Source of the DNA: Goekera deserti
Lineage (GTDB): Bacteria; Actinomycetota; Actinomycetes; Mycobacteriales; Geodermatophilaceae
Direction of reading: 5' to 3'
NCBI RefSeq assembly: GCF_010685995.1
Contig: NZ_JAAGWK010000005.1
Coordinates: forward strand, 124,001 to 188,000
Length of the DNA: 64,000 nt
The first letter of the stretch is position 1, and each line of letters starts with the position of its first letter. Shown one piece after another: positions 1,202 through 41,476 of this stretch. A program made the translations under genes and the position numbers. The notes beneath the pieces are model-generated. The model worked only from the letters and a program-made list of their open reading frames with translations. It was not told the origin of the DNA and searched no databases.

Positions 1202-2793
1202 CAAGCGCCGAAGATAGCCGCACGTTCGGCGAGCTCCAGCACCGCCCCGGGCACGACCCCGAGGACCAGCGTCGCCGACACGGTCACGGCCAGCACGATC
1301 GTCGTCGGCAGGCCGGGCACGCCGACCGTGGGGCCGTCCTCGGCCGGGTCGGAGAAGTACATCAGCACGACCAGCTTCAGGTAGTAGAACGCCGCGATGG
1401 CGCTGGCCACCAGGGCGACCACGACCAGCGGCCACGCGCCCTGCTCGATCGCCGCGCGGAACACGGTGAACTTGCCGATGAAGCCGCTGGTGAGCGGGAT
1501 GCCGGCCAGGGCGAGCAGGAAGAGGGTCATGATGGCGGCGGTCAGCGGCGAGCGGCGGGCCAGCCCGGCCCACTGCGACAGGTGCGTCGCCTCGCCGTCC
1601 CCGTCGCGCACCAGGGTGACCACGGCGAAGACCCCGACGGTGCTGATGCCGTAGGCGAGCAGGTAGAACATCGTGGCCTGCAGCCCGGAGCCCGTGCCAC
1701 CCGGCCCGAGGCCCAGCACACCGGTGAGCAGGAAGCCGGCGTGCGCGATCGAGGAGTAGGCCAGCATCCGCTTGACGTCGGTCTGGGTGAGCCCGAGCAC
1801 CGCGCCCACCAGCATCGACACGATCGCGATGCCGTAGACCAGCGGCCGCCACGTCCACTCGCTGTCGCCGAAGGCCACGTAGAGCAGCCGCAGGATGGCC
1901 CCGAAGGCGGCGACCTTGGTGCACGCGGCCATGAAGGCGGTGACCGGGGTGGGGCTGCCCTGGTAGACGTCCGGCGTCCAGGTGTGGAAGGGGGCGACGC
2001 TGGCCTTGAACATCAGGCCGACGATCAGCAGGCCCAGGCCGATGACCGGCAGGGTCGAGGTGCTGTCCTCCAGCCCGGCGGCCCGGATGTCGGCCAGCTG
2101 CACGCTGCCGGTGGACCCGTAGACCAGCGCCAGGCCGTAGAGGAAGAACGCGGAGGCGAAGGCGCCCAGCAGGAAGTACTTGAGCGCCGCCTCCTGGGAC
2201 AGCAGCCGGCGGCGGCGGGCCATCCCGGCCAGCAGGTACAGCGGCAGGCTGAGCACCTCGAGGGCGACGAACATGATCAGCAGGTCGTTCGCCGCGGTGA
2301 ACAGCATCATCCCGGCGATGGCGAACGTCGCCAGCGGGTAGACCTCGGTCTGCACCCGCTGCGCGGTCATCAGCTCGCGGTCCCGGGCGCTGCCGGCCGG
2401 CACGGCCGCGGACGCCACGAAGGAGGAGCGGGCGGGGTCCAGCGACCGCTCGGCGAACAGCAGGATCGACAGCGCCCCGAGCCCGGCGATGGTCGCCTGC
2501 AGGAACAGCCCCGCCCCGTCGACGGCGAGCGCCTGCGCGGCGGTGACCTCCCGGGTCCCGGCGAGCAGCACGCAGGCCACCAGCGCGCCGAGCGTGCCGG
2601 CCAGCGCCACGGCGACCTGCACCGGGTGCCGCACGTTCCGCGGCGCGAAGGCCTCCACCAGCACGCCGACGGCGGCCGCGCCGAAGACGCACAGCAGCGG
2701 CGTGATGCCCGCGAGGGAGAAGTCCGGGGCGTTGATCGCGTCCACCGCGACCGTGTCGAACCGTGCCGTGTCGAGTACCGGGCTGGCGCCCAT
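1201..2793 (-). CDS. nuoN: NADH-quinone oxidoreductase subunit N
   Basis: Antiporter-like membrane subunit of complex I, 530 residues, usual for actinobacterial NuoN. It is hydrophobic throughout with about 14 predicted helices and carries the proton-translocation signature of the family: a conserved Lys in FKASVAPFHTW and the PTPVTAFMAACTK loop. DVKRMLAYSSIAHAG is the Mrp-antiporter-type helix. The start is taken at the ATG at 2793, which shares a base with the nuoM stop (TGATG); reading the same frame further upstream gives only shadow sequence against nuoM. It lies between nuoM and the polyprenyl synthase and is co-transcribed with both. Confidence 0.97.
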   Translation of the reverse strand: MGASPVLDTARFDTVAVDAINAPDFSLAGITPLLCVFGAAAVGVLVEAFAPRNVRHPVQVAVALAGTLGALVACVLLAGTREVTAAQALAVDGAGLFLQATIAGLGALSILLFAERSLDPARSSFVASAAVPAGSARDRELMTAQRVQTEVYPLATFAIAGMMLFTAANDLLIMFVALEVLSLPLYLLAGMARRRRLLSQEAALKYFLLGAFASAFFLYGLALVYGSTGSVQLADIRAAGLEDSTSTLPVIGLGLLIVGLMFKASVAPFHTWTPDVYQGSPTPVTAFMAACTKVAAFGAILRLLYVAFGDSEWTWRPLVYGIAIVSMLVGAVLGLTQTDVKRMLAYSSIAHAGFLLTGVLGLGPGGTGSGLQATMFYLLAYGISTVGVFAVVTLVRDGDGEATHLSQWAGLARRSPLTAAIMTLFLLALAGIPLTSGFIGKFTVFRAAIEQGAWPLVVVALVASAIAAFYYLKLVVLMYFSDPAEDGPTVGVPGLPTTIVLAVTVSATLVLGVVPGAVLELAERAAIFGA

Positions 2794-4343
2794 CAGTCCC
2801 CCGCTCCTGCCTCGGTGATGGCCGGCGTGGTGCCGGCGGGATCGGACCCGATGTCGCTCATGGTCGCGCTGACCGCGGGGTCGATCAGGTCCAGCAGCGG
2901 CTGCGGGTAGACCCCGAGGCCGATGACCAGCGCGATCAGCGGCGCCGCGACGACGAGCTCGCGGCGGTCCAGGTCGTGGAAGCGCCCCGGCTCCTCGGCG
3001 ACCAGGCCCCGCTCGGGCCCGTGCATGGTGCGCTGCACCAGCAGCAGCACGTACAGCGCGGCCAGCACGATGCCGACGGTCGCGACGACCGTGAACGCCG
3101 GCCGGGTCGGGAAGGACCCGATGAGCACCAGGAACTCGCTGACGAAGCTGTTGGTGCCCGGCAGCGCCAGCGACGACAGGCCGGCGATCAGGAGCACCCC
3201 GGCCAGCACCGGCGCCCGCTTGGCCACCCCGCCGTACGCCGAGATCTCCCGCGTGCCGCCGCGGGCGATGAGCATCCCGATGGCCAGGAACAGCAGGCCG
3301 GTGCTGATCCCGTGGTTGACCATGTACAGCACCGCGCCGGTGCCGCCCTCGGTGCTGAAGGCGAAGATGCCGAGCGCGATGAACCCGAAGTGGGCGATCG
3401 ACGTGTACGTGACCAGCCGTTTCAGGTCGCTCTGGCCCATCGCCAGCAGGGCCGCGTAGATGATGCCGATGACCGCCAGGGTCAGGATCCACGGCGCGAA
3501 GTCGCGGGCGGCGTCGGGGAACAGCGGCAGGCAGTAGCGCAGGAAGCCGAAGGTGCCGACCTTGTCCAGCACCCCGACGAGCAGCACGCCGCCGCCGATC
3601 GGGGCCTCGGCACCGGAGTCCGGCAGCCAGGTGTGGAACGGGAACAGCGGCGCCTTGATGGCGAAGGCCAGGAAGAAGCCGAGGAACAGCAGCTTCTGCA
3701 CGTCGGTGTCGATCTCCAGCTGGCGCAGCGCGTCGAAGGCGAAGGTGCCCTCGCCGAGCTGGGAGTTGCTCACCACGTACAGGCCGATGACCGAGGCGAG
3801 CATGACCAGCCCGCCGAGCAGGCTGTAGAGGAAGAACTTCACCGCCGCGTACTGCCGGCGCGGGCCGCCGAAGCTCCCGATGATGAAGTACATCGGGACG
3901 AGCATCGCCTCGAAGAACACGTAGAACAGGAACACGTCGGTGGCGGCGAAGACGCCGACCATCATCGCCTCGAGCACCAGCAGCCAGGCGAAGTAGCCGC
4001 GCATCGAGCGGCGGCCGGCGGAGGTGTCGTCCCAGGACGCGACCACCACGACGGGCACCAGCACCCCGATGAGCAGCAGCATCACCAGCGCGATGCCGTC
4101 CACACCGAGGGCGAAGTCGACGCCGAAGCTCTCGATCCACGGCGTGCTGGTGGTCAGCTGGAACCGGTCGCCGCCGGTGTCGAAGGCGATCGTCGCGCCG
4201 GCGGCGAGCACCAGCACGGCCAGGCTCACCCCGAGGGTCAGCCCCCGGGCCAGCGGGTCGCGGCCGGCGGGCAGTGCGGCCACGACCGCACCACCGACCA
4301 GCGGCAGGGCGATCATGACGATCAGCCACGGGAAGTCGGTCAT
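2793..4343 (-). CDS. nuoM: NADH-quinone oxidoreductase subunit M
   Basis: Second antiporter-like subunit of the complex I membrane arm, 516 residues. Family signatures include GVDGIALVMLLL near 85, FEAMLVPMYFIIG (the conserved Glu of helix 5), KAPLFPFHTWLPD with its proton-path Lys, and DLKRLVTYTSIAHFG. The ATG at 4343 has a GGAGG 8 bases upstream (GCGGAGGCGACCCG before the ATG), a clear ribosome-binding site. A 58-base gap separates it from nuoL, one of the few real spacers in this operon. It ends on a TGATG junction with nuoN. Confidence 0.97.
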   Translation of the reverse strand: MTDFPWLIVMIALPLVGGAVVAALPAGRDPLARGLTLGVSLAVLVLAAGATIAFDTGGDRFQLTTSTPWIESFGVDFALGVDGIALVMLLLIGVLVPVVVVASWDDTSAGRRSMRGYFAWLLVLEAMMVGVFAATDVFLFYVFFEAMLVPMYFIIGSFGGPRRQYAAVKFFLYSLLGGLVMLASVIGLYVVSNSQLGEGTFAFDALRQLEIDTDVQKLLFLGFFLAFAIKAPLFPFHTWLPDSGAEAPIGGGVLLVGVLDKVGTFGFLRYCLPLFPDAARDFAPWILTLAVIGIIYAALLAMGQSDLKRLVTYTSIAHFGFIALGIFAFSTEGGTGAVLYMVNHGISTGLLFLAIGMLIARGGTREISAYGGVAKRAPVLAGVLLIAGLSSLALPGTNSFVSEFLVLIGSFPTRPAFTVVATVGIVLAALYVLLLVQRTMHGPERGLVAEEPGRFHDLDRRELVVAAPLIALVIGLGVYPQPLLDLIDPAVSATMSDIGSDPAGTTPAITEAGAGD

Positions 4344-4401
4344 CGGGTCGCCTCCGCGGGCATCGTCGTCCGGGGTGCGGTCGTCGGGGTGGGCAGGGCG
4401 C

Positions 4402-6306
4402 TCACGAGGCCACCGCCAGCAGGGCCGCGGTCACGATGACGGCGCCACCGAGCATGCCGAGGGCATAGCTGCGCACGAAGCCGGTCTGCGCCCGCCCCAG
4501 CCGGGACGACGAGCCGCCCAGCCCGGCGGCGAGGCCGTTGACCGCGCCGTCGACGCCCCGGTTGTCCACCCACACCAGCGCGCGGGTGAGCCACATGCCG
4601 GGACGCATGAAGACCGACTCGTTGAGGGCGTCGGCGTACAGGTTGCGCCGGGCGGCGGTGACCACCGGCGACACCCGGGCGGGTGCGGTGACCGGCACCT
4701 CGCGGCGGCCGACCAGCAGCCACGCGGCGATCACGCCGACGGCCACGACCGCGGTGACCAGCACGCTGACCAGCAGCGGCGCGATCACGTGCTCGCGCTC
4801 GGCCTCCGGGCCGAACACCGGCTCCAGCCACTCGACCAGCGGGAAGGTCTGGGTGAGCAGGAAGCCGCCGGCGACCGACCCGACGGCCAGCACGATCATC
4901 GGCACGGTCATCACCGGCGGGGACTCGTGCGGGTGCACGCCGTCCTCCCAGCGGGGGGTGCCGAAGAAGGTCATGAACATCAGCCGGGTCATGTAGAACG
5001 CGGTCAGCCCGGCGCCCAGCACGGCGACCCCGCCGAGCAGCCAGCCCGAGGTGCCGCCCTTGTCGAAGGCGGCCTCGATGATCGCGTCCTTGGTCCAGTA
5101 GCCGGACAGGAACGGGAACCCGATCAGCGCCAGGTAGCCCAGGCCGAAGGTGACGAAGGTGGTCTTCATCTTCGTGGCCAGGCCGCCGAAGCGGCGCATG
5201 TCGACCTGGTCGCCCATCCCGTGCATCACCGAGCCCGCGCCCAGGAACAGCCCCGCCTTGAAGAAGCCGTGGGTGACCAGGTGCGCGATGCCGGCCGCGT
5301 AGCCCACCGGGCCGAGGCCGACGGCGAGGAACATGTAGCCGATCTGGCTGACCGTGGAGTAGGCCAGCACCTTCTTGATGTCGTCGTGGGCGCAGCCGAT
5401 CACCGCACCGATCAGGATCGTCACCGCCCCGATCACCAGGACGACGGTCCGCGCGGTCTCGGTGGCGTCGTAGACCGGGGCGGACCGGGCGATCAGGTAC
5501 ACCCCGGCGGTGACCATGGTGGCCGCGTGGATCAGCGCCGAAACCGGGGTCGGGCCCTCCATGGCGTCGGGCAGCCAGGCCTGCAGCGGGAACTGGCCGC
5601 TCTTGCCGCAGGCGCCCAGCAGCAGGAGCAGGCCGATGGCGGTGACGGTGCCGCCGGCCAGCAGGCCGACCGAGCCGAACACGTCCTCGTAGGACGTGGT
5701 GCCCAGCTGGGCGAACATCACGAAGATCGCGATCGCCAGCCCGACGTCGCCGACCCGGTTCATGATGAACGCCTTCTTGGCCGCGGTGGCGGCCGACGGG
5801 CGGGTGTACCAGAACGCGATGAGCAGGTAGGACGCCAGGCCGACGCCCTCCCAGCCGACGTAGAGCGCGACGTAGGAGTTGCCCAGGACCAGCACCAGCA
5901 TCGCGGCGACGAACAGGTTCAGGTAGGCGAAGAACCGGCGGCGGCCGGGGTCGTGCGCCATGTAGCCGATCGAGTAGACGTGGATCAGCGTGCCGACGCC
6001 GGTGATGAGCAGCAGGAACACCGCCGACAGCGGGTCGACGAGCAGCCCGGCCCGGACGTCGAGGGAGCCGCTGTCGATGAAGGTGAACAGGTCCACCGTC
6101 ACCGACTCCTCGGCCAGCCCGGCGAGCTGCACCACCGACAGCACGCCGAGGACGAAGGACGCGGCGACCAGCCCGGTGGCCAGCAGGTGGCCCCAGCGGT
6201 CGGTGCGGCGGCCGCCGAGCAGGAGCACGGCGGCGCCCAGCAGCGGCAGCGCGATCAGCAGCCAGGACGCGGAGAGCAGCCCGGTCGCGGGCAGCGTCTC
6301 AGGCAT
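4402..6306 (-). CDS. nuoL: NADH-quinone oxidoreductase subunit L
   Basis: Largest antiporter-like subunit, 634 residues, with the long C-terminal amphipathic (lateral) helix expected of NuoL. Conserved stretches include [17 protein letters not shown] with the family Glu, [31 protein letters not shown] in two parts, and [18 protein letters not shown]. It contributes to proton pumping at the distal end of the membrane arm. It follows nuoK after a 73-base spacer that contains no gene. Length and motif order match the family and nothing appears missing. Confidence 0.97.
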
Positions 6307-6379
6307 GGTCGTATCCCAGCACGGGGCAGCTCCGTCTCGCCGTCGTCAGCGGGTGGTGGTGTGGGGGGGGTGGCGCGGG

Positions 6380-6679
6380 TCAGTACTTGAGCAGGTTGGC
6401 GTCGTCGACGGAGGCCGACCGGCGGGTGCGGTAGATCGACATGATGATCGCCAGGCCGACGACCACCTCGGCCGCGGCGACCACCATCACGAAGAAGGCG
6501 ATGATCTGGCCGTCGATCGTCCCGGTGGCCCGGGCGAAGGTGACCAGCGTCAGGTTGACCGAGTTGAGCATCAGCTCGATGCACATGAAGACGACGATCG
6601 CGTTGCGGCGCACCAGCACGCCGATGGCACCGATCGTGAACAGGACGGCGGCGAGCACCAGGTAGTTGGTCAGCGTCAT
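6380..6679 (-). CDS. nuoK: NADH-quinone oxidoreductase subunit K
   Basis: Small three-helix membrane subunit of complex I, 99 residues, exactly the usual size. The conserved pattern [17 protein letters not shown] carries the membrane-buried Glu of helix 2, and a second acidic residue follows in [11 protein letters not shown]. The start overlaps the nuoJ stop as ATGA, so the two are translationally coupled. It ends 73 bases before nuoL. Confidence 0.97.
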
Positions 6680-7530
6680 CGCGGCGTCTCCCCCCGCTGC
6701 TGGCCAGTGCCCGACGTGCTGCCCAGCGAGGCGTCGGAGTCCTCGATGGCCCGGCCCCGCGGACCGGTCTCCGACAGCCCGGGGCGGGGCATCTCGTCGA
6801 CGTCCTGCGGCTCGACGCCGGTGGCGAAGCTGCTCTCGGCGATGCCACCGTCGGGCAGCCGGCCCGGGGCGGCGATGGAGTTGGCCCGGGCGTAGACGCC
6901 CGGTCCGGGCAGCGTCTGCGGCCGCTCGGTGAGGAAGCGGGCCCGGGACAGCTCGCGCTGGGTCTGCCGGCTGCCGGGCTCGCGCTCGATGTGGGCCAGC
7001 ACCATCGCGCCCACCGCCGCGGTGATCAGCAGGGCACTGGTCACCTCGAAGGCGAGCAGGTAGTCGGTGAACAGCGAGCGGGCGATGGCCGGCACGTTGC
7101 CGTCGGTGCCCTGCACGCCCTCCAGGCCGGTGACCACCAGACCCTCGGTGGCCCGGGCGATGCCCGCGCCGACCAGGCCGGCGAACCCCACGCCGAGCAC
7201 GATCGCGGCCAGCCGCTGGCCGCGCAGCGTCTCGACCACGGAGTCCGCGGAGTCCCGGCCGACCAGCATCAGCACGAACAGGAAGAGGATCATGATCGCG
7301 CCGGTGTAGACGATGATCTGCACGGCACCCAGGAACGGCGCCTGCTGGATCACGTAGAACACCCCGAGCGCCAGCATGCTGTTCACCAGGAACAGCGCCG
7401 AGTGCACGGCGTTGCGGCTGAACACCATGCCCAGCGCGCCGGCGAGCGCGACCGGGGCGAGCAGCCAGAAGGCCACCGTCTCCCCCGTGCCGATCTGCGC
7501 CCCGCCGGCGGCGGCGGCGAGCACGGTCAT
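6676..7530 (-). CDS. nuoJ: NADH-quinone oxidoreductase subunit J with long polar tail
   Basis: Membrane subunit of complex I, 284 residues. The N-terminal five-helix part carries the typical [17 protein letters not shown] stretch, containing the pi-bulge helix that opens and closes the proton path in structures of the family. Roughly the last 90 residues, after HIEREPGS, form a polar Pro/Gly-rich tail absent from enterobacterial NuoJ; actinobacterial versions often have such a tail. The start is the ATG at 7530, overlapping the nuoI stop as ATGA. Sequence upstream in the same frame is shadow reading of nuoI. Confidence 0.95.
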
Positions 7531-8180
7531 GCCCGGCCGCCCACGGGGGTGGCGCCGGCCGCCGGCGGTGCGTCCAGGGCGGGCGCGGCCGGGCGGGCCG
7601 GCCGCGGGGCGTAGTAGTCGGCGTCGTCCCCGAGCCGCATCGGGTGCGGGGGCTGCTCCATGCCGGGCAGCAGCGGCGCCATCAGCTGCTCCTTGGTGAA
7701 GATCAGGTCCTGCCGGTTGTCGTCGGCCAGCTCGAAGTCGTTGCTCATGGTCAGCGACCGGGTCGGGCAGGCCTCGATGCACAACCCGCAGAAGATGCAG
7801 CGCAGGTAGTTGATCTGGTAGACGCGGCCGTAGCGCTCACCCGGTGAGAACCGCTGCTCGTCGGTGTTGTCCCCGCCCTCGACGTAGATCGCGTCGGCCG
7901 GGCAGGCCCAGGCGCACAGCTCGCAGCCCACGCACTTCTCCAGCCCGTCGGGGTGCCGGTTCAGCACGTGCCGGCCGTGGTAGCGCGGCTTGGTCACCTT
8001 GGCGACCTCGGGGTACTCCTCGGTGGTCACCTTCTTGAACATCGTCGAGAAGGTGATGCCGAAGCCCTGCAGCGGCGCCGGCAGCAGGCTGGGGCGCTGC
8101 GGCTTCACCGGCGCCCGGTCCGCGCCGGCCGGCCGGGCGACCTGCCCGTCGCCACGGCGGGCGGGGGTCTGGTCAGGCAT
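7527..8180 (-). CDS. nuoI: NADH-quinone oxidoreductase subunit I (two 4Fe-4S ferredoxin-like subunit)
   Basis: Peripheral-arm subunit of 217 residues carrying clusters N6a and N6b. Both tetracysteine motifs are complete: [12 protein letters not shown] near 85 and [12 protein letters not shown] near 130. The N terminus has about 25 extra polar residues and the C terminus an Ala/Pro-rich tail ([16 protein letters not shown]). The ATG at 8180 overlaps the nuoH stop by 8 bases. It passes electrons from NuoG towards NuoB and the quinone site. Confidence 0.96.
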
Positions 8181-9684
8181 CGTCGTCCTCTCGGTCGGGG
8201 GTGGTCGGGGTGCTGTCGGCGGCGGTGGCGCCACCGGGGCGGCCGCGCCGGCCGCTGGCCACCACACCGGCGGCGGCACCGACCGGCTCCTTGCTGCGCA
8301 GCCGGGGCGACGGCGGCACCACGAGGTCCATCGGCGGCACCGGGAACCCGCCCGCGGAGCGGCTGGGCCCACCGGCCTGGGCCGGGCGGCGGCGCGGGCC
8401 GGCGGCCGGCAGCACCTCCGGCTCGGGCTCGGTGGCCCGGGTGGCCCCGGCCGCGGCCTTGAGCGCGGCGACCCGGGTGGCCCGGTTGCGGCGGCGCGAG
8501 GCGATCAGCAGCCCGGCGATGAGCACCGCGGCGATCGGCACCCCGATGTAGAAGGCGACCTCACCGGAGTCCAGGTCCGCCTCGCGGCCGACGGTGCGCA
8601 TGGTGGCGACGACGAGGATCCAGACCAGCGCCGTGGGCACCAGCACCTTCCAGCCGAAGCTCATGAACTGGTCGTAGCGCATGCGGGGCAGCGTGCCGCG
8701 CAGCCAGACGAACACGAACAGGGCGAGCACGACCTTGGCCGTCCACCACAGCAGCGGCCACCAGCCGGTGTTCGCGCCGTCCCAGATCGAGATCGGCCAC
8801 GGCGCCCGCCAGCCGCCGAGGAACAGCGTCGCGGCCAGCGCCGAGACGGTGACCATGTTGATGTACTCGGCCAGGAAGAACAGCGCGAACTTCAGCGACG
8901 AGTACTCGGTGTGGAACCCGCCGACCAGCTCGCTCTCGGCCTCGGGCAGGTCGAACGGCGCCCGGTTGGTCTCCCCGACCACCGCGATCACGTAGATGAC
9001 GAAGGAGACCGGCAGCAGGACGGCGAACCAGCTCGGCCCCTGGGTCTCGAAGCCGAAGAAGGAGACCTGGTTGCCACCGGCCTGGGCGGCGACGATCTCC
9101 GAGGTGGACATGGAGCCCGCGTAGAGGAACACCGCCACGATGGACAGGCCCATGGCGATCTCGTAGCTGACCATCTGCGCGGCACTGCGCAGGCTGCCCA
9201 GCAGCGGGTAGGTGGAGCCGGAGGCCCAGCCGCCGAGCACGATCCCGTAGATGCCCATGGCCGAGCAGGCCAGCACGATGAGCACCCCGATCGGGGCGTC
9301 GGTGAGCTGCAGCGGGGTGCGCTCGCCGAAGATGCTGACCGTCGGCCCCAGCGGGATCACCGAGAACGCGAGGAACGCCGGGACGGTGGCCAGCACCGGG
9401 GCCAGGAAGTACACCGGCCGGTCGGCCAGCGCCGGCATGATGTCCTCCTTCAGCGCCAGCTTCAGGCCGTCGGCCAGGCTCTGCAGGGAGCCGCGCGGGC
9501 CCACCCGGTTGGGGCCGATCCGCTGCTGCATCCGGGCGACGACCTTGCGCTCGAAGATGATCGCGAACAGCGTCAGCAGGACGAGGATCCCGAAGACACC
9601 GACGATCTTGATGAGCACGATCCACCAGACGTCGGTGCCGAAGTCCTCCAGCGTGGGCTGGTCGGCACTCGCGAGCAGGCTCAT
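8173..9684 (-). CDS. nuoH: NADH-quinone oxidoreductase subunit H with C-terminal extension
   Basis: Membrane subunit forming the quinone chamber floor, 503 residues. Conserved stretches are [19 protein letters not shown] near the N terminus, the acidic loop [23 protein letters not shown], and [12 protein letters not shown] near the end of the core. The core resembles typical NuoH of about 410 residues. A further ~90 residues (after IASRRRNR) are polar, Pro/Gly/Arg-rich and end in acidic DREDDDA. The start is the ATG at 9684, overlapping the nuoG stop as ATGA. Confidence 0.96.
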
Positions 9685-12194
9685 GCGGGCTCTCCGGTCA
9701 GGTCGGACACGGCGGTGGCACCGGTGCGGGCGTCGATCGGGACGGCGGCGGACACCCGGACGACGCTGCCGGGACCCGCCCCCAGGGCGGTGCGCACGGC
9801 ACTGCCCGGTGACCGCATCGGCAGCCACACGACCCGGTCGGCCATGTCGACCACCAGGGCGGGCAGCGTGATCGCCCCGGCCGGGCCGGTGACGGTGACC
9901 GGGTCGCCGGTGCCGACGCCGGTGCGCGCGGCCAGCTCCCGGCCGAGCCGGGCCACCGCGGGGCGGGCGGTGCCGGCCATGGCCGGCTCCTCGCGCTGCA
10001 GCGTGCCGTCGTCGAGCAGCTGGCGCCAGGACGCCAGCACGACCTCGTCGTCCTGCAGCGTCCGCGGGGCGGGCGGCGGCACGTCGAGGCCCTGGACGTG
10101 GCCGATCCGGCCGGCGCCGCCGAGCGCGATGAGCTCGCTGCGGGCGGCGTCGACCCCGGGCAGGCCGAGGTCGACGTCCATCGCGTCGGCGAGGCCGTGC
10201 AGCACCCGGGCGTCCGGCAGCTGGCCGGTGCCGTGCAGGGTGGCGTCAAAGGGGCGTACCCGGCCCTCCCAGTCGAGGTAGCTGCCGGCCTTCTCCGGGG
10301 CCGCGGCCACCGGCAGGACGACGTCGGCGTGCGCGGTGACCGCGCTGGGCAGCAGCTCCAGGCTGACCACGAAGCCGGCCGCGGACAGCGCCTGCTCGGC
10401 CAGCAGCGGGTCGGGCAGGTCGGCGGGGTCGACGCCGCCGACGAGCAGCCCGGCGAGGCGGCCGTCGCGGGTGGCGGTGAGGATGCCGGTGAGGTCCAGG
10501 CCCGGGGTGGCCGGCACCTCGGCGCCCCACAGCCGGCCGACCTCCGCGCGGGCGGCGGGGTCGAGCACCGAGCGGCCGCCGGGCAGCATGGTGGGCAGCG
10601 CGCCGACCTCGACCGCCCCGCGCTCGCCGGCCCGCCGCGGCACCCAGGCCAGCCGGACGCCGGTCTGGTGGGCCAGCCCGGTGAGCGCGGAGAACGCCCC
10701 CGGCACCTCGGCCAGCCGCTCGCCGGCCAGCACGATCGCGCCGGGCATCCGCACCGCGGCGACGGCGTCCGGGTCGCCGGTGCCGTTGGCCAGGCCGGCC
10801 AGCACCAGCGCCTCCTCGCCCGGGGCCGCGGCCAGCACGGTCGCGCTGAGCTTGCCGGCCGCGCGGGTGACGAACGGGGCGATGTCGAACACCGGCAGCC
10901 CGCGGGCGCGAGTGGCCTTGCGCAGCCGGAGGAAGACGATCGGCGACTCCTCCTCGGGCTCGAAGCCGACCAGCACCACGGCGGGGGCGGCGTCCAGCTC
11001 CTCGTAGGTGACCGCGCCGGCGCCGGGCGCGGAGCCCGCGACGTGCGCGGCCAGGAAGGCCTGCTCCTCGTCGGAGTGGGCCCGCGCGCGGGCGTCGACG
11101 TCGTTGGTGCCCAGCACCACCCGGGCGAACTTGGCGTAGGCGTACGCGTCCTCGACGGTCAGCCGGCCGCCGGGCAGCACGCCGACGCCCCCGGCGTCGG
11201 CGGCCGCGGCGAGGCCCCGCGCGGCGGCGGCCCAGGCCTCGGGCCAGGACGCCGGCTGCAGCACGCCGTCCCGGCGCACCAGCGGCGTGGTGAGCCGCTC
11301 GTTGGAGGCGGCGTAGCGGAACGCGAAGCGCCCCTTGTCGCAGTTCCACTCCTCGTTGACCTCGGCGTCCTCACCGGCGAGCCGGCGCATCACGGTGCCG
11401 CGCCGGTAGTCGGTGCGCTGGGCGCAGCCCGAGGCGCAGTGCTCGCAGACGCTGGGCTCGCTGCGCAGGTCGAAGGGCCGGGAGCGGAAGCGGTAGGCGG
11501 CGCTGGTCAGCGCTCCGACCGGGCAGATCTGCACCGTGTTGCCCGAGAAGTAGCTCTCGAACGGCTCGTCGGTGTAGATCGCCACCTGCTGCAGCGCGCC
11601 ACGCTCGAACAGGTCGACGAACGGGTCGCCGGCGATCTGCTGGGAGAACCGGGTGCAGCGGGCGCAGAGCACGCAGCGCTCGCGGTCCAGCAGCACCTGC
11701 GAGCTGATCGGCATCGGCTTGGGGTAGGTGCGCTTGACGTCGACGAAGCGGCTCTCGGTGCGGCCGCTGCTCATCGCCTGGTTCTGCAGCGGGCACTCCC
11801 CGCCCTTGTCGCACACCGGGCAGTCCAGCGGGTGGTTGACCAGCAGCAGCTCCATCGTGCCCTGCTGCGCCTTGTCGGCGACCTCGCTGGTGAGCTGCGT
11901 CCTGACCACCATGTCCGGGGTGACCGGGACGGTGCAGGAGGCCACCGGCTTGCGCTGGCCCTCCACCTCGACCAGGCACTGCCGGCAGGCGCCCACCGGT
12001 TCCAGCAGCGGGTGGTCGCAGAACCGGGGCACCTGGACGCCGATCTGCTCGGCGGCCCGGATGATCAGCGTGCCCTTCGGCACCTCGACGGTGAACCCGT
12101 CGACGGTGCAGCGGACGTGGCCCTCGGCCGGCGGGGGCAGCTCCGGCGGGCCGTCAGCGCCGGTGCCGGGCGGTGCGGGCTGGGTGGTGGTCAT
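9681..12194 (-). CDS. nuoG: NADH-quinone oxidoreductase subunit G
   Basis: Large iron-sulfur subunit, 837 residues. In order it has an N-terminal 2Fe-2S ferredoxin domain ([15 protein letters not shown], about 60-74), the His-Cys 4Fe-4S region ([18 protein letters not shown]), a second 4Fe-4S site (CVLCARC ... CPVGALT), and a molybdopterin-oxidoreductase-like domain. The last begins CEHCASGC with a fourth Cys in WNCDKGRF, so the extra N7 cluster found in some bacteria is probably present. The C-terminal half is a degenerate molybdenum-enzyme fold. The ATG at 12194 overlaps the nuoF stop as ATGA. Confidence 0.96.
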
Positions 12195-13519
12195 GCCATG
12201 GCTCCCACGGGCTCGAGCTTCAGCGTGCGGCCGAGCCGGTCCCGCTCGTCGGCGGGCAGCAGGGCCACGTAGTCGTCCTTGAAGTACTTCAGCGAGCTGG
12301 CGATGCAGCTGGTGGCACCGTCGCCGAGCGCGCAGAAGGAGCGGCCGAGGATGTTGTCGCAGGTGTCCAGCAGCAGGTCCAGGTCGCGGGCGGTGCCACG
12401 GCCGTCCACCAGCCGCTGCAGGATCTGGACCAGCCAGTAGGTGCCCTCCCGGCACGGGGTGCACTTGCCGCAGCTCTCGTGGGCGTAGAACTGGGTGAAC
12501 CGCAGGGTGGCCTCGACGATCGAGTCGGTCTCGTCGAAGACCATCAGCGCGGTGGTGCCCAGCATGGAGCCGGCCGCCGCCACCGAGTCGAAGTCCAGCG
12601 GGACGTCGAGGTGCTCGGCGGTGAAGTACGGCGTGGAGCTGCCGCCCGGCGTCCAGAACTTGAGCTGGTGGCCCGGGCGCACCCCGCCGGCCATCTCCAG
12701 CAGCTCGTTCATCGTGGTGCCCATCGGTGCCTCGTACTGGCCGGGGCGCACGACCCGGCCGGACAGCGAGTAGATCTTCGGGCCGGGCGACTTCTCCGGG
12801 CCGAACGCCTTGAACCACGCCGCCCCGCCCCGGACGACGAACGGCACGCTGGCCAGGGTCTCCACGTTGTTGACCACCGTGGGCGAGCCGTACAGCCCGG
12901 CGACGGCGGGGAAGGGCGGCTTGAGCCGCGGCTGGCCGCGGTGGCCCTCCAGGGAGTCCAGCAGCGCGGTCTCCTCGCCGCAGATGTAGGCCCCCGCCCC
13001 GGCGTGCACCACCACCTCCAGGTCGTAGCCCGAGCCGAGCACGTCGGTGCCGAGGTAGCCGGCGGCGTAGGCCTCCTCGACGGCGGCGACCAGCCGGCGG
13101 TGGGCGTGCACGGCCTCGCCGCGGACGTAGATGACCGCGAAGTGCGAGCGGATGGCGTAGGCGGCGATGGCCACGCCCTCCACCAGCGAGTGCGGGTCGG
13201 CCATCATCAGCGGGATGTCCTTGCAGGTGCCCGGCTCGCCCTCGTCGGCGTTGACCACCAGGTACTTGGGCTTGGCCGCCGGCCCGGTGGGGGTCTCCCC
13301 CGGCTTGGGCTGCGGGATGAAGCTCCACTTCATCCCGGTGGGGAAGCCGGCGCCGCCGCGACCGCGCAGGCCGGAGTCCTTGACCATGGTGACGAGCTCG
13401 TCGGGGGTCATCTGCAGCGCGCGGCGCAGGCCGACGTAGCCCTCGGTGGCCTCGTAGGCGGCCAGCGTCCAGGACCGCTCGACGGCGTAGCGCTCGGTGA
13501 GCACGGGGGTGAGCGGCAT
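12191..13519 (-). CDS. nuoF: NADH-quinone oxidoreductase subunit F (NADH/FMN site)
   Basis: Subunit of 442 residues that binds NADH, FMN and cluster N3. The Gly-rich FMN/NADH stretch [13 protein letters not shown] lies near 52-64, a second [14 protein letters not shown] near 170, and the 4Fe-4S ligands are in [11 protein letters not shown] plus the later [11 protein letters not shown]. The length is typical. It starts 3 bases after nuoE and ends on an ATGA junction with nuoG. Electrons enter complex I here. Confidence 0.97.
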
Positions 13520-13522
13520 GGC

Positions 13523-14572
13523 TCAGACCTCTCTCTGGGCGGTCGGTGGGCTCGGGCTGGTCGAGGGGGCGGGACCCTCTCCGGATCCGGACTGCGCGGG
13601 GGTGGCCGGGGTGTCCGTGCCGGTGGCGCGCGTGCCGGTGCGCCGGCGGGACGGGCCCTTCCGGTCGGGGTCGGCCGTCTTCGCCCCGGCACGCTCGGCC
13701 GGGTTGCCGGCCGCCGCGACGCGGGCGTCGGAGGCCTCCTTCTCCGGTGCCTGGCCGGTCCGACCGGTGGGCCGGGTGGCGGCGCGCGGCTCGTCGACGT
13801 CCGGTGTCGGCGCGGGGGCCGGGGCCTGCATCGGCGGGGCGGCCTCCCCGCGCTCCTCGGCCAGCCGGACGCCGACCAGCGTGGGCACCCCGGCGGACGG
13901 ACCGTCGACGGCGGCCCGGGCGGCCTCGGCGTCGGCGTGCTGGGAGAAGCCGGCCAGCTGGCGGGAGACGCCGCGGAAGTCGGTCAGGGGCGCGCCCCGG
14001 GTGGGCAGCGGCTTCTCCCCGCGGCGCAGCGCCGCGACGAGCTCCCGGGTGCTCTCGACGTCCTGCTGGTCGTAGAACTCGTAGTCGACGGTGACCACCG
14101 GCGCGTAGTCGCAGGCCGCCAGGCACTCGGCGTGCTCCAGGGTGATGGAGCCGTCGGCGGTGGTCTGGTCGTGGCCGACGCCGAGGTCGGCCTTGACCGC
14201 CTCGAAGATCCGCTGGCCGCCGAGCACGTTGCACAGCGTGTTGGTGCAGACGCTGACGATGTGCCGGCCGGTGGGGCTGCGCTTGTACATCGTGTAGAAC
14301 GTCGCGACCGCGCCTACCTCGGCCTTGGTCAGCCCCAGCTCCTCGGCGCACAGCGCGACGCCCTCGGGCGAGACGTAGCCCTGCACCGACTGCACCAGGT
14401 GCAGCATCGGCAGCAGCGCCGAGCGGGCCTGCGGGTAGCGGGCCATCAGCTCCCGGCACTCGAGCCGGGTCTGCTCGGTCAGCGGCGGCAGGTCGGCCGC
14501 GACCGGCTCGACCGGCGAGGAGTCCAGGCCGGTGACGGCCGTGCCCTCGGTGGATCCAGGAAGCGCGCTCAT
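13523..14572 (-). CDS. nuoE: NADH-quinone oxidoreductase subunit E with long disordered tail
   Basis: Thioredoxin-like 2Fe-2S subunit, 349 residues. The core (about 30-190) has the four cluster ligands as CTNTLC and CLAAC and the conserved [12 protein letters not shown]. About 150 residues follow that are rich in Pro, Ala, Arg, Thr and Glu without recognisable fold; the usual protein is about 160-250 residues. The start at 14572 shares a base with the nuoD stop (TGATG). The tail is continuous with the frame and its third-codon-position GC bias looks normal, so I read it as real and not as a frameshift product. Confidence 0.94.
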
Positions 14573-15894
14573 CAGCGGTCCACTCCCCCCATGACGGGGT
14601 CGATCGACGCCACGGCGGCGATGACGTCGGCGATCATGCCGCCCTCGCTCATCGCCGCGGTGGCCTGCAGGTTGACGAAGCTGGGGTCGCGCACGTGGCA
14701 GCGGAACGGGCGGGTGCCGCCGTCGCTGACCATGTGGAAGCCGAGCTCGCCGCGCGGGCTCTCGATCGCCGAGTACACCTGCCCGGCCGGCACCCGGAAG
14801 CCCTCGGTGACCAGCTTGAAGTGGTGGATCAGGGCCTCCATCGACTGGCCCATGATGTGCTGCACGTGCTCCAGGGAGTTGCCCATGCCGTCGGAGCCGA
14901 GCGACAGCTGCGCCGGCCAGGCGATCTTCTTGTCCTCGACCATCACCGGGCCCGGCTCCAGGCGGTCCAGGGCCTGCTCGATGATCTTCAGCGACTCGGT
15001 CACCTCGGCCATCCGCACCAGGTAGCGGCCCCACGCGTCGCAGGTGTCGGCGGTGGGCACCTCGAAGTCGTAGTCCTCGTAGCCGAGGTAGGGCTCGACC
15101 TTGCGCAGGTCCCACGGCAGGCCCGCGGCCCGCAGGATCGGCCCGGTCACGCCGAGCGCGATGCAGCCGGTGACGTCGAGGTACCCGGCGTCCTTGAGCC
15201 GGCGCTGCCAGATCGGCTGGCCGGTGAGCAGCTTGTGGAAGTCCTGCGCGCGGGCCGGCATGACGTCGAGGAAGTCGCGGATGCGGCCCTCCACGCCCTC
15301 GGGCAGGTCCTGGGCCAGGCCGCCGGGGCGGATGTAGGCGTGGTTCATCCGCAGGCCGGTGATCTCCTCGAGCAGGTCGAGGATCATCTCCCGCTCGCGG
15401 AAGCCGTTGGTCATGCCGGTGAGGGCGCCCATCTCCATGCCGAAGGTGGCCAGCCCCACCAGGTGCGAGGCGATCCGGTTGAGCTCCATCACGAGCACCC
15501 GGATGGTCTGCGCCCGCTGCGGGGCCTCGATGCCCAGCAGCTTCTCCACGGCCAGGCAGTAGCCGGCCTCGTTGTACAGCGGGGCCAGGTAGTCCATCCG
15601 CGTGACGAAGGTGGTGCCCTGCGTCCAGGTGCGGTACTCGATGTTCTTCTCGATGCCGGTGTGCAGGTAGCCGATCACCACCCGCGCCTTGGTCACCGTC
15701 TCGCCCTCGAGGTCGAGGACCAGGCGCAGCACCCCGTGCGTCGAGGGGTGCTGCGGGCCCATGTTGACCACGAGCCGTTCCTCGCCGAGCTGGTCACCGC
15801 CGAAGGTCTGGTCCCAGTCGCCGCCGGTGACGGTGTAGACGCGACCCTCGGTGGTCTGCCGTGAGCCGGCGTACGGGTCGAACGTGGTGCTCAT
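14572..15894 (-). CDS. nuoD: NADH-quinone oxidoreductase subunit D
   Basis: The 49-kDa-type subunit, 440 residues, which with NuoB forms the quinone-binding head. [14 protein letters not shown] near 45-58 contains the His that lines the quinone site, and the C terminus ends in the conserved DPVMGGVDR. There is no fusion with NuoC, unlike enterobacteria. It starts 31 bases after nuoC ends, and that spacer holds GGAG-type sequence for its own ribosome-binding site. Confidence 0.97.
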
Positions 15895-15925
15895 GAGCTG
15901 CTCCCGCTGGTCTCGCGGTCGGCGG

Positions 15926-16618
15926 TCACCGGTAGCTCCGCCGCTGGTCCGGGGGTGGGATCTGGGCGTCGTGGTACTCGACCGGCACGCCGCCCAGCGG
16001 GTAGTCCTTGCGCTGCGGGTGCCCGTCCCAGTCGTCGGGCATGAGGATCCGGGTGAGCGCCGGGTGACCGTCGAAGACGATCCCGAACATGTCCCAGGTC
16101 TCCCGCTCGTGCCAGTCCGCGGTCGGGTACACGCCGGTGACCGAGGGCAGGTGCGGGTCCTCGGCGCTGACCGCCACCTCCAGCCGCACGCGACGGCGGT
16201 AGGTCATCGACGTCAGGTGCAGCACCACGTGCAGCCGGAGCACCTCGGAGACGTCCGGGCCGCCGCTGTCCAGGTAGTCGACGCCGGAGACGCTGCTGCA
16301 CAGCTCGAAGCGCAGCGCCTCGTCGTCGCGCAGCGCCTGCACGATCGTCAGCAGGTGCTCGCGCAGCACGAAGTAGGTGATCTCCCCGCGGTCCACCACC
16401 ACCCGCGGGACGGCGGCCGCGTAGGTGGCTGGCCCGACGGCCTCGATCAGCGCGTCGGTGACCTCGTCGAACCAGCCGCCGTAGGGCCGCTCGCTGCTGT
16501 GCAGGGCGACGGCACCCCCGGGCTCGACACGCACCAGCCCGCCGAAGCCCGAGGTGTCCCCGCTGCCCGAGACGCCGAACGCCCCGCGCTTGAAGCCACC
16601 CGCCGCGCCCCCGGTCAC
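15926..16618 (-). CDS. nuoC: NADH-quinone oxidoreductase subunit C
   Basis: The 30-kDa-type peripheral subunit, 230 residues. The diagnostic C-terminal signature is present: [18 protein letters not shown] followed by [20 protein letters not shown]. The first ~35 residues are Gly-rich and poorly conserved. Its ATG overlaps the nuoB stop as ATGA. It links NuoD and NuoI in the peripheral arm and has no cofactor of its own. Confidence 0.97.
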
Positions 16619-17283
16619 GGCCGCGCCTCCGGCAGCCGGACGGCGGCGCCGTCACGCTGCTCGATGGCGAACTGGCCGGTGCGCCCGGCGGCCGCGGCCC
16701 GCTCGTAGGCCTCCCGGCTCTCCTTGTGCGCGCGCACCGACGACGGCATCGCCACGTGCAGCTCCTTCGCCGTCCCGTCCGCGCGGGCCGCGGCCAGGGC
16801 TGCCGCGCGCTTGGGACCGAGTGGCTCGTGCTGGATCTTGTGGTGCAGCTTGAGGATCGCGTCCATCAGCATCTCCGGCCGCGGCGGGCAGCCGGGCAGG
16901 TACATGTCCACCGGCACGATGTGGTCGACGCCCTGGACGATCGCGTAGTTGTTGAACATCCCGCCGGAGCTGGCGCAGACACCCATCGCCAGCACCCAGC
17001 GCGGCTCGGGCATCTGGTCGTAGATCTGCCGCACGACCGGCGCCATCTTCTGGCTCACCCGGCCGGCCACGATCATCAGGTCGGCCTGGCGCGGGGAGGG
17101 CCGGAACACCTCCATGCCGAAGCGGGCCAGGTCGTAACGGCCGGCACCGGAGGCCATCATCTCGATCGCGCAGCACGCCAGGCCGAACGTCGCCGGCCAC
17201 AGCGAGGACTTGCGGGTCCAGTTGACGACCTTCTCCACGCTGGTCAGCAGGATGCCGCTGGGGATCTTCTCTTCCAGGCCCAT
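16615..17283 (-). CDS. nuoB: NADH-quinone oxidoreductase subunit B (cluster N2)
   Basis: The PSST-type subunit, 222 residues, holding the terminal 4Fe-4S cluster N2 that reduces quinone. Ligand cysteines appear as [20 protein letters not shown] and [10 protein letters not shown], the unusual tandem Cys pair being diagnostic. The C-terminal ~45 residues form a basic, Ala-rich tail. It is separated from nuoA by 91 bases containing a short perfect hairpin, and overlaps nuoC as ATGA. Confidence 0.97.
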
Positions 17284-17374: not shown

Positions 17375-17737
17375 TCAGTCCCACTCCAGGCCCCCGCGGC
17401 GCCAGACGTAGGCGTAGGCGATGAAGACCGTGGCGATGAAGACCGCCATCTCGACCAGGCCGAAGACGCCGAGCGCCTCGTTGCTGACCGCCCACGGGTA
17501 GAGGAAGACGATCTCGATGTCGAAGACGATGAAGAGCATCGCGGTCAGGTAGAACTTCACCGGGAAGCGGCCGCCGGTCAGCGGCTGGTCGACCGGCTCG
17601 ATGCCGCACTCGTAGGCCTCGAGCTTGGCCTGGTTGTAGCGCCGCGGGCCGACGTACGGGGCGGCCGCCACGGAGAACAGGGCGAACGCCGCGGCCAGCA
17701 CGAAGAGCCCGACGAACGGCATGTAGTTGGACAACAT
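17375..17737 (-). CDS. nuoA: NADH-quinone oxidoreductase subunit A
   Basis: First gene of the complex I operon, a three-helix membrane subunit of 120 residues. [12 protein letters not shown] and [12 protein letters not shown] are the family signatures, including the Cys on the loop that moves between active and deactive states. The start chosen is the ATG at 17737 because GGGGGAG lies 7 bases upstream; an in-frame GTG at 17767 would add ten residues but has no such site. The promoter and Rex operator lie just upstream. Confidence 0.96.
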
Positions 17738-17776: not shown

Positions 17777-17794
17777 TTGTGAAGTAATTCACAA
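17777..17794. promoter_or_regulatory. Rex operator upstream of the nuo operon
   Basis: TTGTGAAGTAATTCACAA is a perfect inverted repeat with 7-bp arms and a 4-bp spacer. It equals the published Rex consensus TTGTGAA-N4-TTCACAA. It lies 40 bases before the nuoA ATG and just downstream of a candidate promoter, where bound Rex would block initiation. A rex gene is present at 40608-41339. Rex releases DNA when NADH is high, so nuo should be derepressed when NADH accumulates (family knowledge applied by inference). Confidence 0.9.
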
Positions 17795-17807
17795 AGTTTC
17801 CTTGTCG

Positions 17808-17836
17808 ACCCTATGCCCTCGGTCACAGAGAACGAA
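17808..17836 (-). promoter_or_regulatory. Candidate nuoA promoter
   Basis: Read on the minus strand, TTCGTT at 17836-17831 and TAGGGT at 17813-17808 are 17 bases apart, a plausible -35/-10 pair. Transcription would begin near 17801, placing the Rex operator at about +7 to +24. The -35 match is weak, so the assignment is tentative. Confidence 0.45.
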
Positions 17837-17978: not shown

Positions 17979-19274
17979 TCAGGCGGCGGGGAGCACCCGG
18001 GTGAGGACGGCGATCGCGCGGTCGACGGCGTCGCCGTCCCGGCCGTCGTGCAGGTTGCCCATCAGCCGCAGCGCGGCGCGCACCAGGGCGGGGCGCTTGA
18101 GGCCGTGCGCGGTGGTGAACCGGACGACGTCCGGGCGGGCCAGCAGGGCCAGGAACCCGGCGCCCAGCCGGTGGTGGCCGCCGTACTCGGCCCGCAGCCG
18201 GTCCGGGTAGGTGCGCAGCAGCTGCTCGGCGGCGACCGGGCCGGGCGCGGCCAGCGCGGCGACGACGACCTCGGCCGCGGTGCGCGCGGTCTCCATGGCG
18301 TAGCTGATGCCCTCGCCGTTGAACGGGTTGATCGCCCCCACGGTGTCCCCGACGAGCACCAGACCGCGGGTGTAGGCCGGGCGGCGTCCCAGCGAGGTGG
18401 GCAGGCCGGCCCCGCGCAGCGGCGTGACCGGCTCGAGCTCCCACTCCGGCGGCAGCGTCTCGACCCAGCGGCGGTACACGGTGCGGGCGTCGTCCGGGCC
18501 GGTGCGGCGGGTGTCGAGGAAGCCGAAGCCCAGGTTGGCCGTGCCGTCGCCCATGCCGAACAGCCAGCCGTAGCCGGGCATCGAGGCGCGGTCCGGGCCG
18601 CGGTCGGTCAGGTCGAAGGAGATGTCCAGCCACGGGTCGGCGGACCGGGGGGTGCGCACGTACTGCCGCACCGCGACGCCGAGCGGCTGGTCGGTGCGCC
18701 GCTCCAGGCCCAAGGACTTGGCCAGCCGGCCCGACGAGCCCTCGGCGGAGACGACCAGCCGGGCGTGCCAGGTGACCGGCCGCTTCCCCGGCCCGGCGAG
18801 GGCCTGCACGCCCACCACGCGGCCGGCGTCGTCCAGCAGCGGGTCGGTGACGGTGACGTCCTGGTGCACCTGCGCGCCGGCGGCCGCGGCGTGCCCGGCC
18901 AGCTGCTGGTCCAGGTCGGCGCGGGTGCGGATGAGGCCGTAGCCGGGCCAGCGGGTCAGCTGCGGCCAGTCGACCTCGACGACCTGGCCACCGCCGAACA
19001 CCCGCAGCCCCCGGTGCCGGGTCCAGCCGGCGGTCTCGGAGGTGTCGATGCCCATGGCCTGCAGGCTGGCGACCCCGCGCGGGGTCAGCCCGTCGCCGCA
19101 GACCTTCTCCCGGGGGAACACCGCCTTCTCCAGCACGACGACGTCCAGACCGGCCCGCGCCAGCCACCAGGCGGCGGTCGACCCGGCCGGCCCGGCGCCG
19201 ACGACGACGACGTCGGCGGTGCGGCCCTGCACGTCGGCGCGCTGGTCGTCGGTGCCGGTCACCGTGCTCACCAC
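17979..19274 (-). CDS. menJ: Geranylgeranyl reductase family FAD oxidoreductase (MenJ-like)
   Basis: FAD-dependent reductase of 431 residues. The N-terminal dinucleotide motif VVVGAGPAGS lies near 23-32, followed by the family's EKAVFPREKVCGDGLTPRG, and a second FAD contact VLVGDTVGAINPFNGEGI near 315. In mycobacteria the relative MenJ saturates one isoprene unit of the menaquinone side chain. Neighbouring menG and the nuo operon favour that role over archaeal-type lipid reduction. It ends 241 bases before nuoA but has no obvious coupling to it. The start is GTG at 19274; a second GTG follows immediately, so one residue is uncertain. Confidence 0.85.
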   Translation of the reverse strand: MVSTVTGTDDQRADVQGRTADVVVVGAGPAGSTAAWWLARAGLDVVVLEKAVFPREKVCGDGLTPRGVASLQAMGIDTSETAGWTRHRGLRVFGGGQVVEVDWPQLTRWPGYGLIRTRADLDQQLAGHAAAAGAQVHQDVTVTDPLLDDAGRVVGVQALAGPGKRPVTWHARLVVSAEGSSGRLAKSLGLERRTDQPLGVAVRQYVRTPRSADPWLDISFDLTDRGPDRASMPGYGWLFGMGDGTANLGFGFLDTRRTGPDDARTVYRRWVETLPPEWELEPVTPLRGAGLPTSLGRRPAYTRGLVLVGDTVGAINPFNGEGISYAMETARTAAEVVVAALAAPGPVAAEQLLRTYPDRLRAEYGGHHRLGAGFLALLARPDVVRFTTAHGLKRPALVRAALRLMGNLHDGRDGDAVDRAIAVLTRVLPAA

Positions 19275-19537: not shown

Positions 19538-20272
19538 TCAGGCGCGGGTGCCCCGGTGCAGCGCGACGACCCCGCCGGTGAGGTTGCGCCAGGCGACGTC
19601 GCTCCAGCCGGCACCCTGCAGGCGGGTGGCGAGCGCGGCCTGGTCCGGCCAGGCCCGGATCGACTCGGCGAGGTAGCCGTAGGCGTCGGGGTTGCTGCTC
19701 ACCCGGTCGGCGATCCGCGGCAGCGCCTTCATCAGGTACTCGGTGTAGACGGTGCGGAACGGGCGCCACACCGGCGAGGAGAACTCGCACACCACCAGCG
19801 TGCCGCCCGGCCGGGTGACCCGGCGGAACTCGCGCAGCGCGGCGTCCGGGTCGGCCACGTTGCGCAGGCCGAAGGAGATGACCACGCCGTCCACGCTCTC
19901 GTCGGCCAGCGGCAGCGCCATCGCGTCGCCGGCGACCTTGGGCACCGGGCGCTGCATGCCGGCCCAGAGCATGCCCTGGGAGAAGTCGCAGGCGATGGCC
20001 CGCACCCCGCCGGCGGCGAGCTCCACGGTGCTCACCGCGGTGCCGGCGGCGACGTCCAGCACGGTCTGCCCGGCACGGGCGCCGAGGGCCTGCCGGGTGG
20101 CCCGGCGCCAGCCGGCGTCCAGGCCACCGGAGAGCACGGTGTTGGTCACGTCGTAGCGGCCGGCGACCCGGTCGAACATCGCGGCGACCTCGGCCGGGCG
20201 CTTGTCCAGGTCGGCGCGCAGACCCCGTCGGCTCCGGAGCGTGCTGCGCGTCTCCTCCTCGCGGGTCACCAC
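19538..20272 (-). CDS. menG: Demethylmenaquinone methyltransferase
   Basis: SAM-dependent methyltransferase of the UbiE/MenG family, 244 residues, performing the last ring methylation of menaquinone. [12 protein letters not shown] near 33-44 and the SAM loop [10 protein letters not shown] near 73-82 are typical, as are [21 protein letters not shown] in the middle and [12 protein letters not shown] later. The start is GTG at 20272 with another GTG directly after it. It is divergent from the isochorismate synthase gene with only 38 bases between the starts, so the two share a promoter region. Confidence 0.92.
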
Positions 20273-40611: not shown

Positions 40612-41339
40612 CGGAGCGCTCCTGTCCCGGCGGCCACGGTCGCCCGCGCGCCGCCGTCCCGGTCGTCGTCGGCCGGCCGGGACGCCGCCGCCAGCTGCTG
40701 GTCGGTGCGCTGCTGGTCGAGGAAGGACAGCACCTGGAGCTCGACCGAGAGGTCGACCTTGCGCACGTCCACTCCCGCGGGGACGGCGAGCGCCACCGGC
40801 GCGAAGTTCAGGATGCTGCGCACCCCGGCCGCCACCAGCCGGTCGCAGACCGACTGGGCGACCTCCGCGGGCGTGGTGAGCACACCGATCGAGGCACCGG
40901 TCTCGGCGACGGCGGCCTCCAGCTCCTCGACCGGGCGGACGGTGTGCCCGCCGACCTGCTGCCCGACCAGCGCGGGGCTGGCGTCCAGCAGGGCGACGAA
41001 CTCGAAACCGCGGCTGCCGAAACCGGCGTAGTCGGCCAGCGCGTGCCCCAGGTTGCCGATGCCGACGAGGACGCAGGCCCGCCGGCGCTCCATGCCCAGG
41101 GCGGCGCCGATCCTGCCGTGCAGCACGGCCACCTCGTAGCCGACGCCGCGCACCCCGCAGGAGCCGAGGTAGCTCAGGTCCTTGCGCAGACCGGCCGGGT
41201 TGACCCCGGCTGCGGACGCCAGCTCACCACTGGAGACACTGGTACGGCCGGCGTCGAGCAGCACCGTCAGCACGCGCAGGTACACGGCCAACCGGGCGAC
41301 GGTGGCCTCCGGGATCATCCGGGGGCGCGACTGGGTCAC
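40608..41339 (-). CDS. rex: Redox-sensing transcriptional repressor Rex
   Basis: NAD(H)-binding repressor of 243 residues. The N-terminal winged helix contains [24 protein letters not shown], the hallmark Rex recognition region, and the Rossmann part has [17 protein letters not shown]. The C-terminal ~30 residues are polar and non-conserved. The GTG at 41339 is chosen because GGAG precedes it by 7 bases and because longer upstream starts would put the operator inside the gene. Rex represses respiratory genes at low NADH/NAD+ ratio. The first gene of a 12-gene haem and cytochrome c operon, as in Streptomyces where rex-hemACD is self-regulated. Confidence 0.95.
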
Positions 41340-41448: not shown

Positions 41449-41476
41449 ACGGTAGTGCTTGTGAACGCAGGAACAA
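41449..41476 (-). promoter_or_regulatory. Imperfect Rex operator and candidate -10 before rex
   Basis: TTGTGAACGCAGGAACAA at 41459-41476 has one perfect Rex half-site (TTGTGAA) and one degenerate half (GGAACAA instead of TTCACAA), matching 11 of 14 consensus positions. On the minus strand TACCGT at 41454-41449 could be the -10, which would put the operator over the -35 and spacer. Autoregulation of rex is known in Streptomyces, which supports the reading. Confidence 0.65.

Follow-up and report, generated by a model that had tools for sequence, protein, structure and literature searches.

The complex I (nuo) operon of Goekera deserti is preceded by a perfect palindrome of the type recognised by Rex, the NADH/NAD+-sensing repressor, which raises the question of whether this operon is a direct target of Rex or whether the palindrome serves another regulator with a similar recognition sequence. 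The stretch of DNA analysed, hereafter the window, comprises 64,000 nt with a GC content of 75%.

The nuo operon and its probable operator

The following genes and sites were recognised at the nuo locus:

2793-17283, minus strand: the remaining nuo operon as examined, from Pfam matches and gene order
17378-17737, minus strand: nuoA, encoding complex I subunit A, the first gene of the nuo operon (NCBIfam PRK07928, 200 bits)
17777-17794, a palindrome with no strand assigned: predicted Rex operator (ROP), from pattern match and conservation
17808-17813, minus strand: TAGGGT, the nearest -10-like hexamer, 13 nt upstream of the ROP, predicted nuo promoter
17979-19274, minus strand: gene of the geranylgeranyl reductase family (GGR), MenJ-like (TIGR02032 above cut-off)
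19538-20272, minus strand: UbiE/MenG-type quinone methyltransferase gene (menG), upstream of GGR (PF01209, 178 bits)

Pfam matches and gene order allowed the assignment of nuoB, nuoD, nuoE, nuoF, nuoG, nuoH, nuoI, nuoJ, nuoL and nuoM, while Pfam gave no match for the nuoC open reading frame, and nuoK and nuoN were not confirmed in this operon. The sequence TTGTGAAGTAATTCACAA at 17777-17794 consists of the half-sites TTGTGAA and TTCACAA separated by GTAA, and it shows no mismatches to the inverted repeat TTGTGAA-N4-TTCACAA, as the first-pass annotation had claimed. A scan of the window revealed one perfect match to this pattern and one match with three mismatches, against a shuffle mean of 0.04. 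The genome-wide scan that had been proposed as a check was run over all 4.84 Mb, and TTGTGAAGTAATTCACAA was the only match to TTGTGAANNNNTTCACAA with two mismatches or fewer; the nuo operator is the strongest Rex-type site of the whole genome. At up to three mismatches the genome contains eight sites, compared with three for the reversed control pattern. Apart from the site at rex described below, the six further sites with three mismatches each lie within a stop-free frame of at least 296 codons, long frames of this kind being no proof of coding in so GC-rich a genome.

The operator is separated by 39 nt from the ATG of nuoA and follows the -10-like hexamer TAGGGT by 13 nt, so its position just downstream of the nuo promoter, also part of the initial claim, holds as a prediction. 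Transcription would start at about 17800-17802, and the operator would then span about +7 to +24. A scanner for consensus sigma-70 promoters found no hexamer pair at nuo, and it is therefore solely the conserved hexamer TA[GC][AG]NT that defines the predicted promoter. This hexamer is present 4-21 nt upstream of the ROP in all 39 regions examined in the family (13-15 nt in 35 of them) and 5-17 nt upstream of the operator in 48 of the 56 sites of the class sample described below, mainly as TAGACT and TACACT; the equivalent interval downstream of the operator contained it in none of the 39 family regions and at one of the 56 class sites. Since the hexamer is conserved at similar spacing upstream of the operator, the latter most likely covers the first bases of the predicted transcript, where Rex would act as a roadblock or block initiation.

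The rex gene and its predicted operator

The regulator is encoded in the same window, about 23 kb from the nuo operator, as originally noted:

40608 to about 41339, minus strand: rex, NADH/NAD+-sensing repressor (NCBIfam Rex equivalog, 336 bits), the start being taken as the GTG at 41339
41459-41476, minus strand: TTGTTCCTGCGTTCACAA, a degenerate ROP with three mismatches in the rex promoter (pattern scan)

The gene is followed by hemA, identified by Pfam. The Rex protein matches Rex structures of the PDB with E-values from 7e-43, and the alignment to these solved structures reveals that both the DNA-binding helix (RKDLSYLG) and the Rossmann motif for NAD(H) (VGIGNLG) are retained. The genome carrying the nuo operator thus itself encodes a Rex with both motifs. 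The left half of the degenerate operator coincides with a -35-like TTGTTC (41471-41476), and a 16-bp spacer separates the latter from a -10-like TACCGT (41449-41454). A site with two (8 loci) or three (22 loci) mismatches was found within 400 nt upstream of rex at all 30 family loci, which are the best 30 of 110 genomes with a match; the reversed control pattern never came below five mismatches upstream of the same 30 loci.

Conservation within Geodermatophilaceae

A site with at most one mismatch was found in 108 of 112 genomes of the family, in which Blastococcus, Klenkia, Modestobacter and Geodermatophilus are among the named relatives. Exactly one such site is present in 102 genomes and two or three in 6; the four genomes without it are assemblies that are 72-76% complete. 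The reversed control pattern with at most one mismatch was absent from all 112. The position relative to nuoA was checked in 64 distinct genomes of the 112, and the operator lies upstream of nuoA in every one of them (30 of 30 loci and 39 of 39 regions). All 80 named loci, which are the best 80 of 587 relatives and in part belong to the same species as genomes of the 112-genome set, likewise contain a site with two mismatches or fewer. Comparison of 39 family sites, 20 of them distinct, revealed that position 2 (T in 36, C in 3) is the only specified column that varies, while in the spacer only the two middle bases are biased (T or C, then A or T). Judging from these sequence comparisons, the predicted Rex operator of nuo is an old and widely kept feature.

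Additional sites were observed at some loci. L356, the same locus as L059 (group g7), has two identical operators with one mismatch 24 nt apart. A second site with two mismatches is found about 68 nt upstream at the Modestobacter-type loci L031 (the same as L115), L111 and L114, and 23 nt downstream at L030.

Association with rex across the class

An even sample of the class, comprising 118 genomes that are at least 90% complete and including the window's own, contained Rex above the curated cut-off in 99 genomes and a NuoA match in 113. From this sample 80 nuoA upstream regions of genomes outside Geodermatophilaceae were compared: 17 strong NuoA loci from 16 genomes lacking Rex, and 63 loci from as many Rex-bearing genomes, hand-picked to cover genera from the 96 available besides the window's own. 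A site with at most two mismatches is present at nuoA in 56 of the 63 Rex-bearing loci as compared with 1 of the 17 Rex-lacking ones, for which the best site otherwise has three mismatches (2 loci) or at least four (14 loci; one region, L262, has just 506 nt upstream). None of the 80 regions contains the control pattern at this threshold. The presence of the site thus tracks rex, with a Fisher p of 1.4e-10 that ignores relatedness, although the lineages are not independent: eight of the 16 Rex-lacking genomes belong to one family and five to another.

The exceptions are few. The lone Rex-lacking locus with a site belongs to G170, an assembly that is 94% complete; the identical site occurs in G123 of the same genus, which does have rex. 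Among the seven Rex-bearing loci without a site, three (L277, L317 and L332) have incomplete upstream sequence, and four genomes are real misses with full upstream sequence, namely G138, G203 and G213 of one family (f2), and G180. Control of nuo is therefore not universal among Rex-bearing genomes. Family f2 also holds five of the Rex-lacking genomes, and since Rex-bearing misses and Rex-lacking genomes occur in it together, disappearance of the site in f2 is not necessarily a consequence of losing rex. Of all full-length Rex matches in the sample, those of G180 and G213 score lowest (270 and 289 bits). A divergent Rex was considered as a common property of all site-less Rex-bearing genomes and was rejected, the proteins of G138 and G203 (324 and 339 bits) resembling that of the window (336).

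Rex versus CRP/GlxR

The sites of CRP/GlxR regulators of Actinobacteria have the consensus core TGTGA-N6-TCACA, and those of GlxR a central TA. The nuo operator, in which TGTGA and TCACA flank AGTAAT, fits both and is the only perfect match to this core in the window and in the genome, which encodes a protein with a CRP-type domain and contains 31 core sites with at most one mismatch, against one for the control pattern. Because the 18-mer contains the core and the genome is rich in such sites, CRP was worth testing as a rival of Rex. The first-pass annotation had noted neither this fit to the CRP consensus nor the degenerate site near rex.

Conservation was examined in the 56 class sites, the columns of which are biased towards the Rex pattern by selection at two or fewer mismatches to it. 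In this set GTGA and TCAC are invariant. The bases outside the CRP core are kept (A7 in 52, T12 in 55, A18 in 55 and T1 in 48), whereas those at the ends of the core vary, with T at position 2 in 17 and C in 32, and A at position 17 in 38 and G in 17. Only 7 sites have T as the first of the central bases, so that a central TA occurs in at most 7 of the 56. The presence of the site follows rex rather than the CRP-type domain, which is encoded by all 16 Rex-lacking genomes (17 of 17 when the window genome is counted), yet a nuoA site with two or fewer mismatches is missing from 15 of these 16, including one with 506 nt of upstream sequence. The column conservation fits Rex better than CRP, suggesting that Rex is the conserved partner of the site.

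Since both consensus sequences overlap in the window site, Rex could be the conserved regulator while a CRP homologue binds the palindrome in competition with it or alongside it; such dual use is unlikely, as both conservation and presence follow Rex and positive evidence of CRP binding was not found. That the palindrome is a CRP/GlxR site, and that CRP rather than Rex controls nuo, is more improbable still, since the family genomes mostly contain one strong site and the nuo operator, though like CRP/GlxR sites in its core, differs from them in the conservation and distribution described above; this candidate was set aside on the co-occurrence with rex and the column conservation. A functionless chance palindrome is scarcely credible, being rejected both by the counts, as the expected number of perfect Rex sites is about 9e-5 for a genome of 4.84 Mb and 75% GC (independent-base estimate), and by conservation, as the site is found at nuo in all position-checked family genomes and in most of the Rex-bearing class sample. 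The first-pass annotation had likewise considered chance unlikely, and the expected count bears this out; however, its argument from the AT-rich GTAA spacer is weak, because the N4 spacer carries almost no information across the 56 class sites.

The 31 CRP-core sites may reflect a real CRP-type regulon in the window genome.

The 18-mer is thus very probably a Rex operator controlling the nuo operon. This reading draws together the single strong site of most family genomes, the presence of the site tracking rex, its location behind a -10-like hexamer and the Rex-type conservation of its columns. The proposal that complex I is a direct target of Rex, which would bind at this site, is supported by sequence and comparison.

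Comparison with Rex systems of Streptomyces

Brekasis and Paget (2003) reportedly described the control of nuoA-nuoN by Rex and ROP in S. coelicolor. That Rex controls nuo has thus been established in Streptomyces before, and the present case adds computational evidence. The predicted system of G. deserti shares with that of Streptomyces the repressor family, the consensus TTGTGAANNNNTTCACAA, the nuo target, the order of rex and hemA, and an operator at the rex promoter. The nuoA-N genes are cited as a member of the S. coelicolor Rex regulon in a review (PMC8063818) and a research paper (PMC7602649). In S. avermitilis, Rex binds nuoA1 as shown by EMSA, ChIP and footprinting, expression of nuoA1 is higher in the rex mutant, TCGTGAA half-sites occur in Rex targets, and an operator lies over the rex promoter (PMC5355995).

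Two differences concern the nuo site itself. The operator of nuoA1 has two mismatches in S. avermitilis, and the report on that species lists no motif with zero mismatches within 350 bp upstream of genes, in contrast to the perfect site of G. deserti (PMC5355995). In S. avermitilis the footprint on nuoA1 spans -42 to -16, between the -35 and -10 elements, while the operator of G. deserti follows the -10-like hexamer; the methods of the S. avermitilis report name 5'-RACE for rex and wblE only (PMC5355995). A third difference concerns cydA, which is a Rex target in Streptomyces; this gene is present in the window genome, but its locus, examined over 4.4 kb, has no site at four or fewer mismatches to the Rex pattern.

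The nuoA loci of Streptomyces and Kitasatospora (e.g. L065-L103) also share, ahead of the -10-like hexamer, a conserved segment in which GATCACA motifs recur. These repeats, of the types agatcacaaag and gtgtcgcagatcaca, are not explained by Rex.

Literature searches, mostly limited to papers outside subscription, found no paper on Rex in Geodermatophilaceae, and a keyword search of the same scope for the rex and nuo operon regulon of actinobacteria returned nothing.

Variable position of the GGR gene

The gene preceding the operator in the window genome is GGR, a match to the geranylgeranyl reductase family that falls far below the cut-off of the MenJ model. As it is located upstream of the nuo operator, it stands outside the unit led by the operator; it has its own -10-like sequence upstream, and no operator was found there. 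Outside Streptomyces and its kin, most of the relatives examined have GGR between the operator and nuoA; the operator then lies close to the start of GGR, some 1.4 kb or more upstream of nuoA. A second arrangement, with GGR ahead of the operator and the operator starting 44-57 nt before nuoA, is found in the window genome, in group g8, to which Klenkia belongs, and in some genomes of group g4, to which Geodermatophilus belongs. No GGR was found ahead of nuoA in most of the examined genomes of group g9 (which holds Modestobacter) or in G022 and G029, where the distance between nuoA and the beginning of the operator is 125-225 nt; one g9 assembly (G096, L123) keeps the order operator, GGR, nuoA.

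The position of menG bears on the origin of these arrangements. It precedes GGR in the window genome and in the three g8 genomes examined, and it precedes the operator in eight of the nine g4 genomes with the order operator, GGR, nuoA. In the 10 g4 genomes in which GGR lies before the operator, menG was not seen upstream, and this arrangement may therefore have arisen differently in g4. A tree of NuoA-D from 39 family genomes and one outgroup, with a long outgroup branch, an unsure root and many open forks, gives five changes among the three GGR states, and its starred branches force at least two changes for the state in which GGR precedes the operator. Since gene order varies around a constant pair of operator and nuo, the operator goes with nuo and GGR is the movable part.

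Proposed mechanism and implications

That Rex binds and represses, where transcription starts and how the system responds to NADH are all inferred by homology to Streptomyces. At a low NADH/NAD+ ratio, a Rex dimer would bind the palindrome within the first bases of the predicted nuo transcript and block initiation or early elongation. With rising NADH, Rex would bind NADH and release the operator, and complex I would be made; its oxidation of NADH would then close a negative feedback loop.

The present analysis adds to the Streptomyces case a single strong site in most genomes of the family and its near-absence from nuoA in the sampled genomes lacking Rex, together with the constant location of the site behind a -10-like hexamer and the variable placement of GGR. 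Direct NADH sensing of complex I, known from Streptomyces, would thereby be extended by sequence evidence to the majority of the sampled Rex-bearing genomes of the class, the nuo site being a very constant Rex target. It may be suggested, tentatively, that Rex of Geodermatophilaceae has narrowed to about one strong target, nuo, with weak control of its own gene, as against the broad regulon of Streptomyces, and that GGR has repeatedly moved in and out of the operator-led unit, so that quinone modification would be coupled to NADH in some genera and uncoupled in others, including G. deserti. The varying position of the reductase gene provides natural pairs for asking whether menaquinone saturation benefits from control by NADH.
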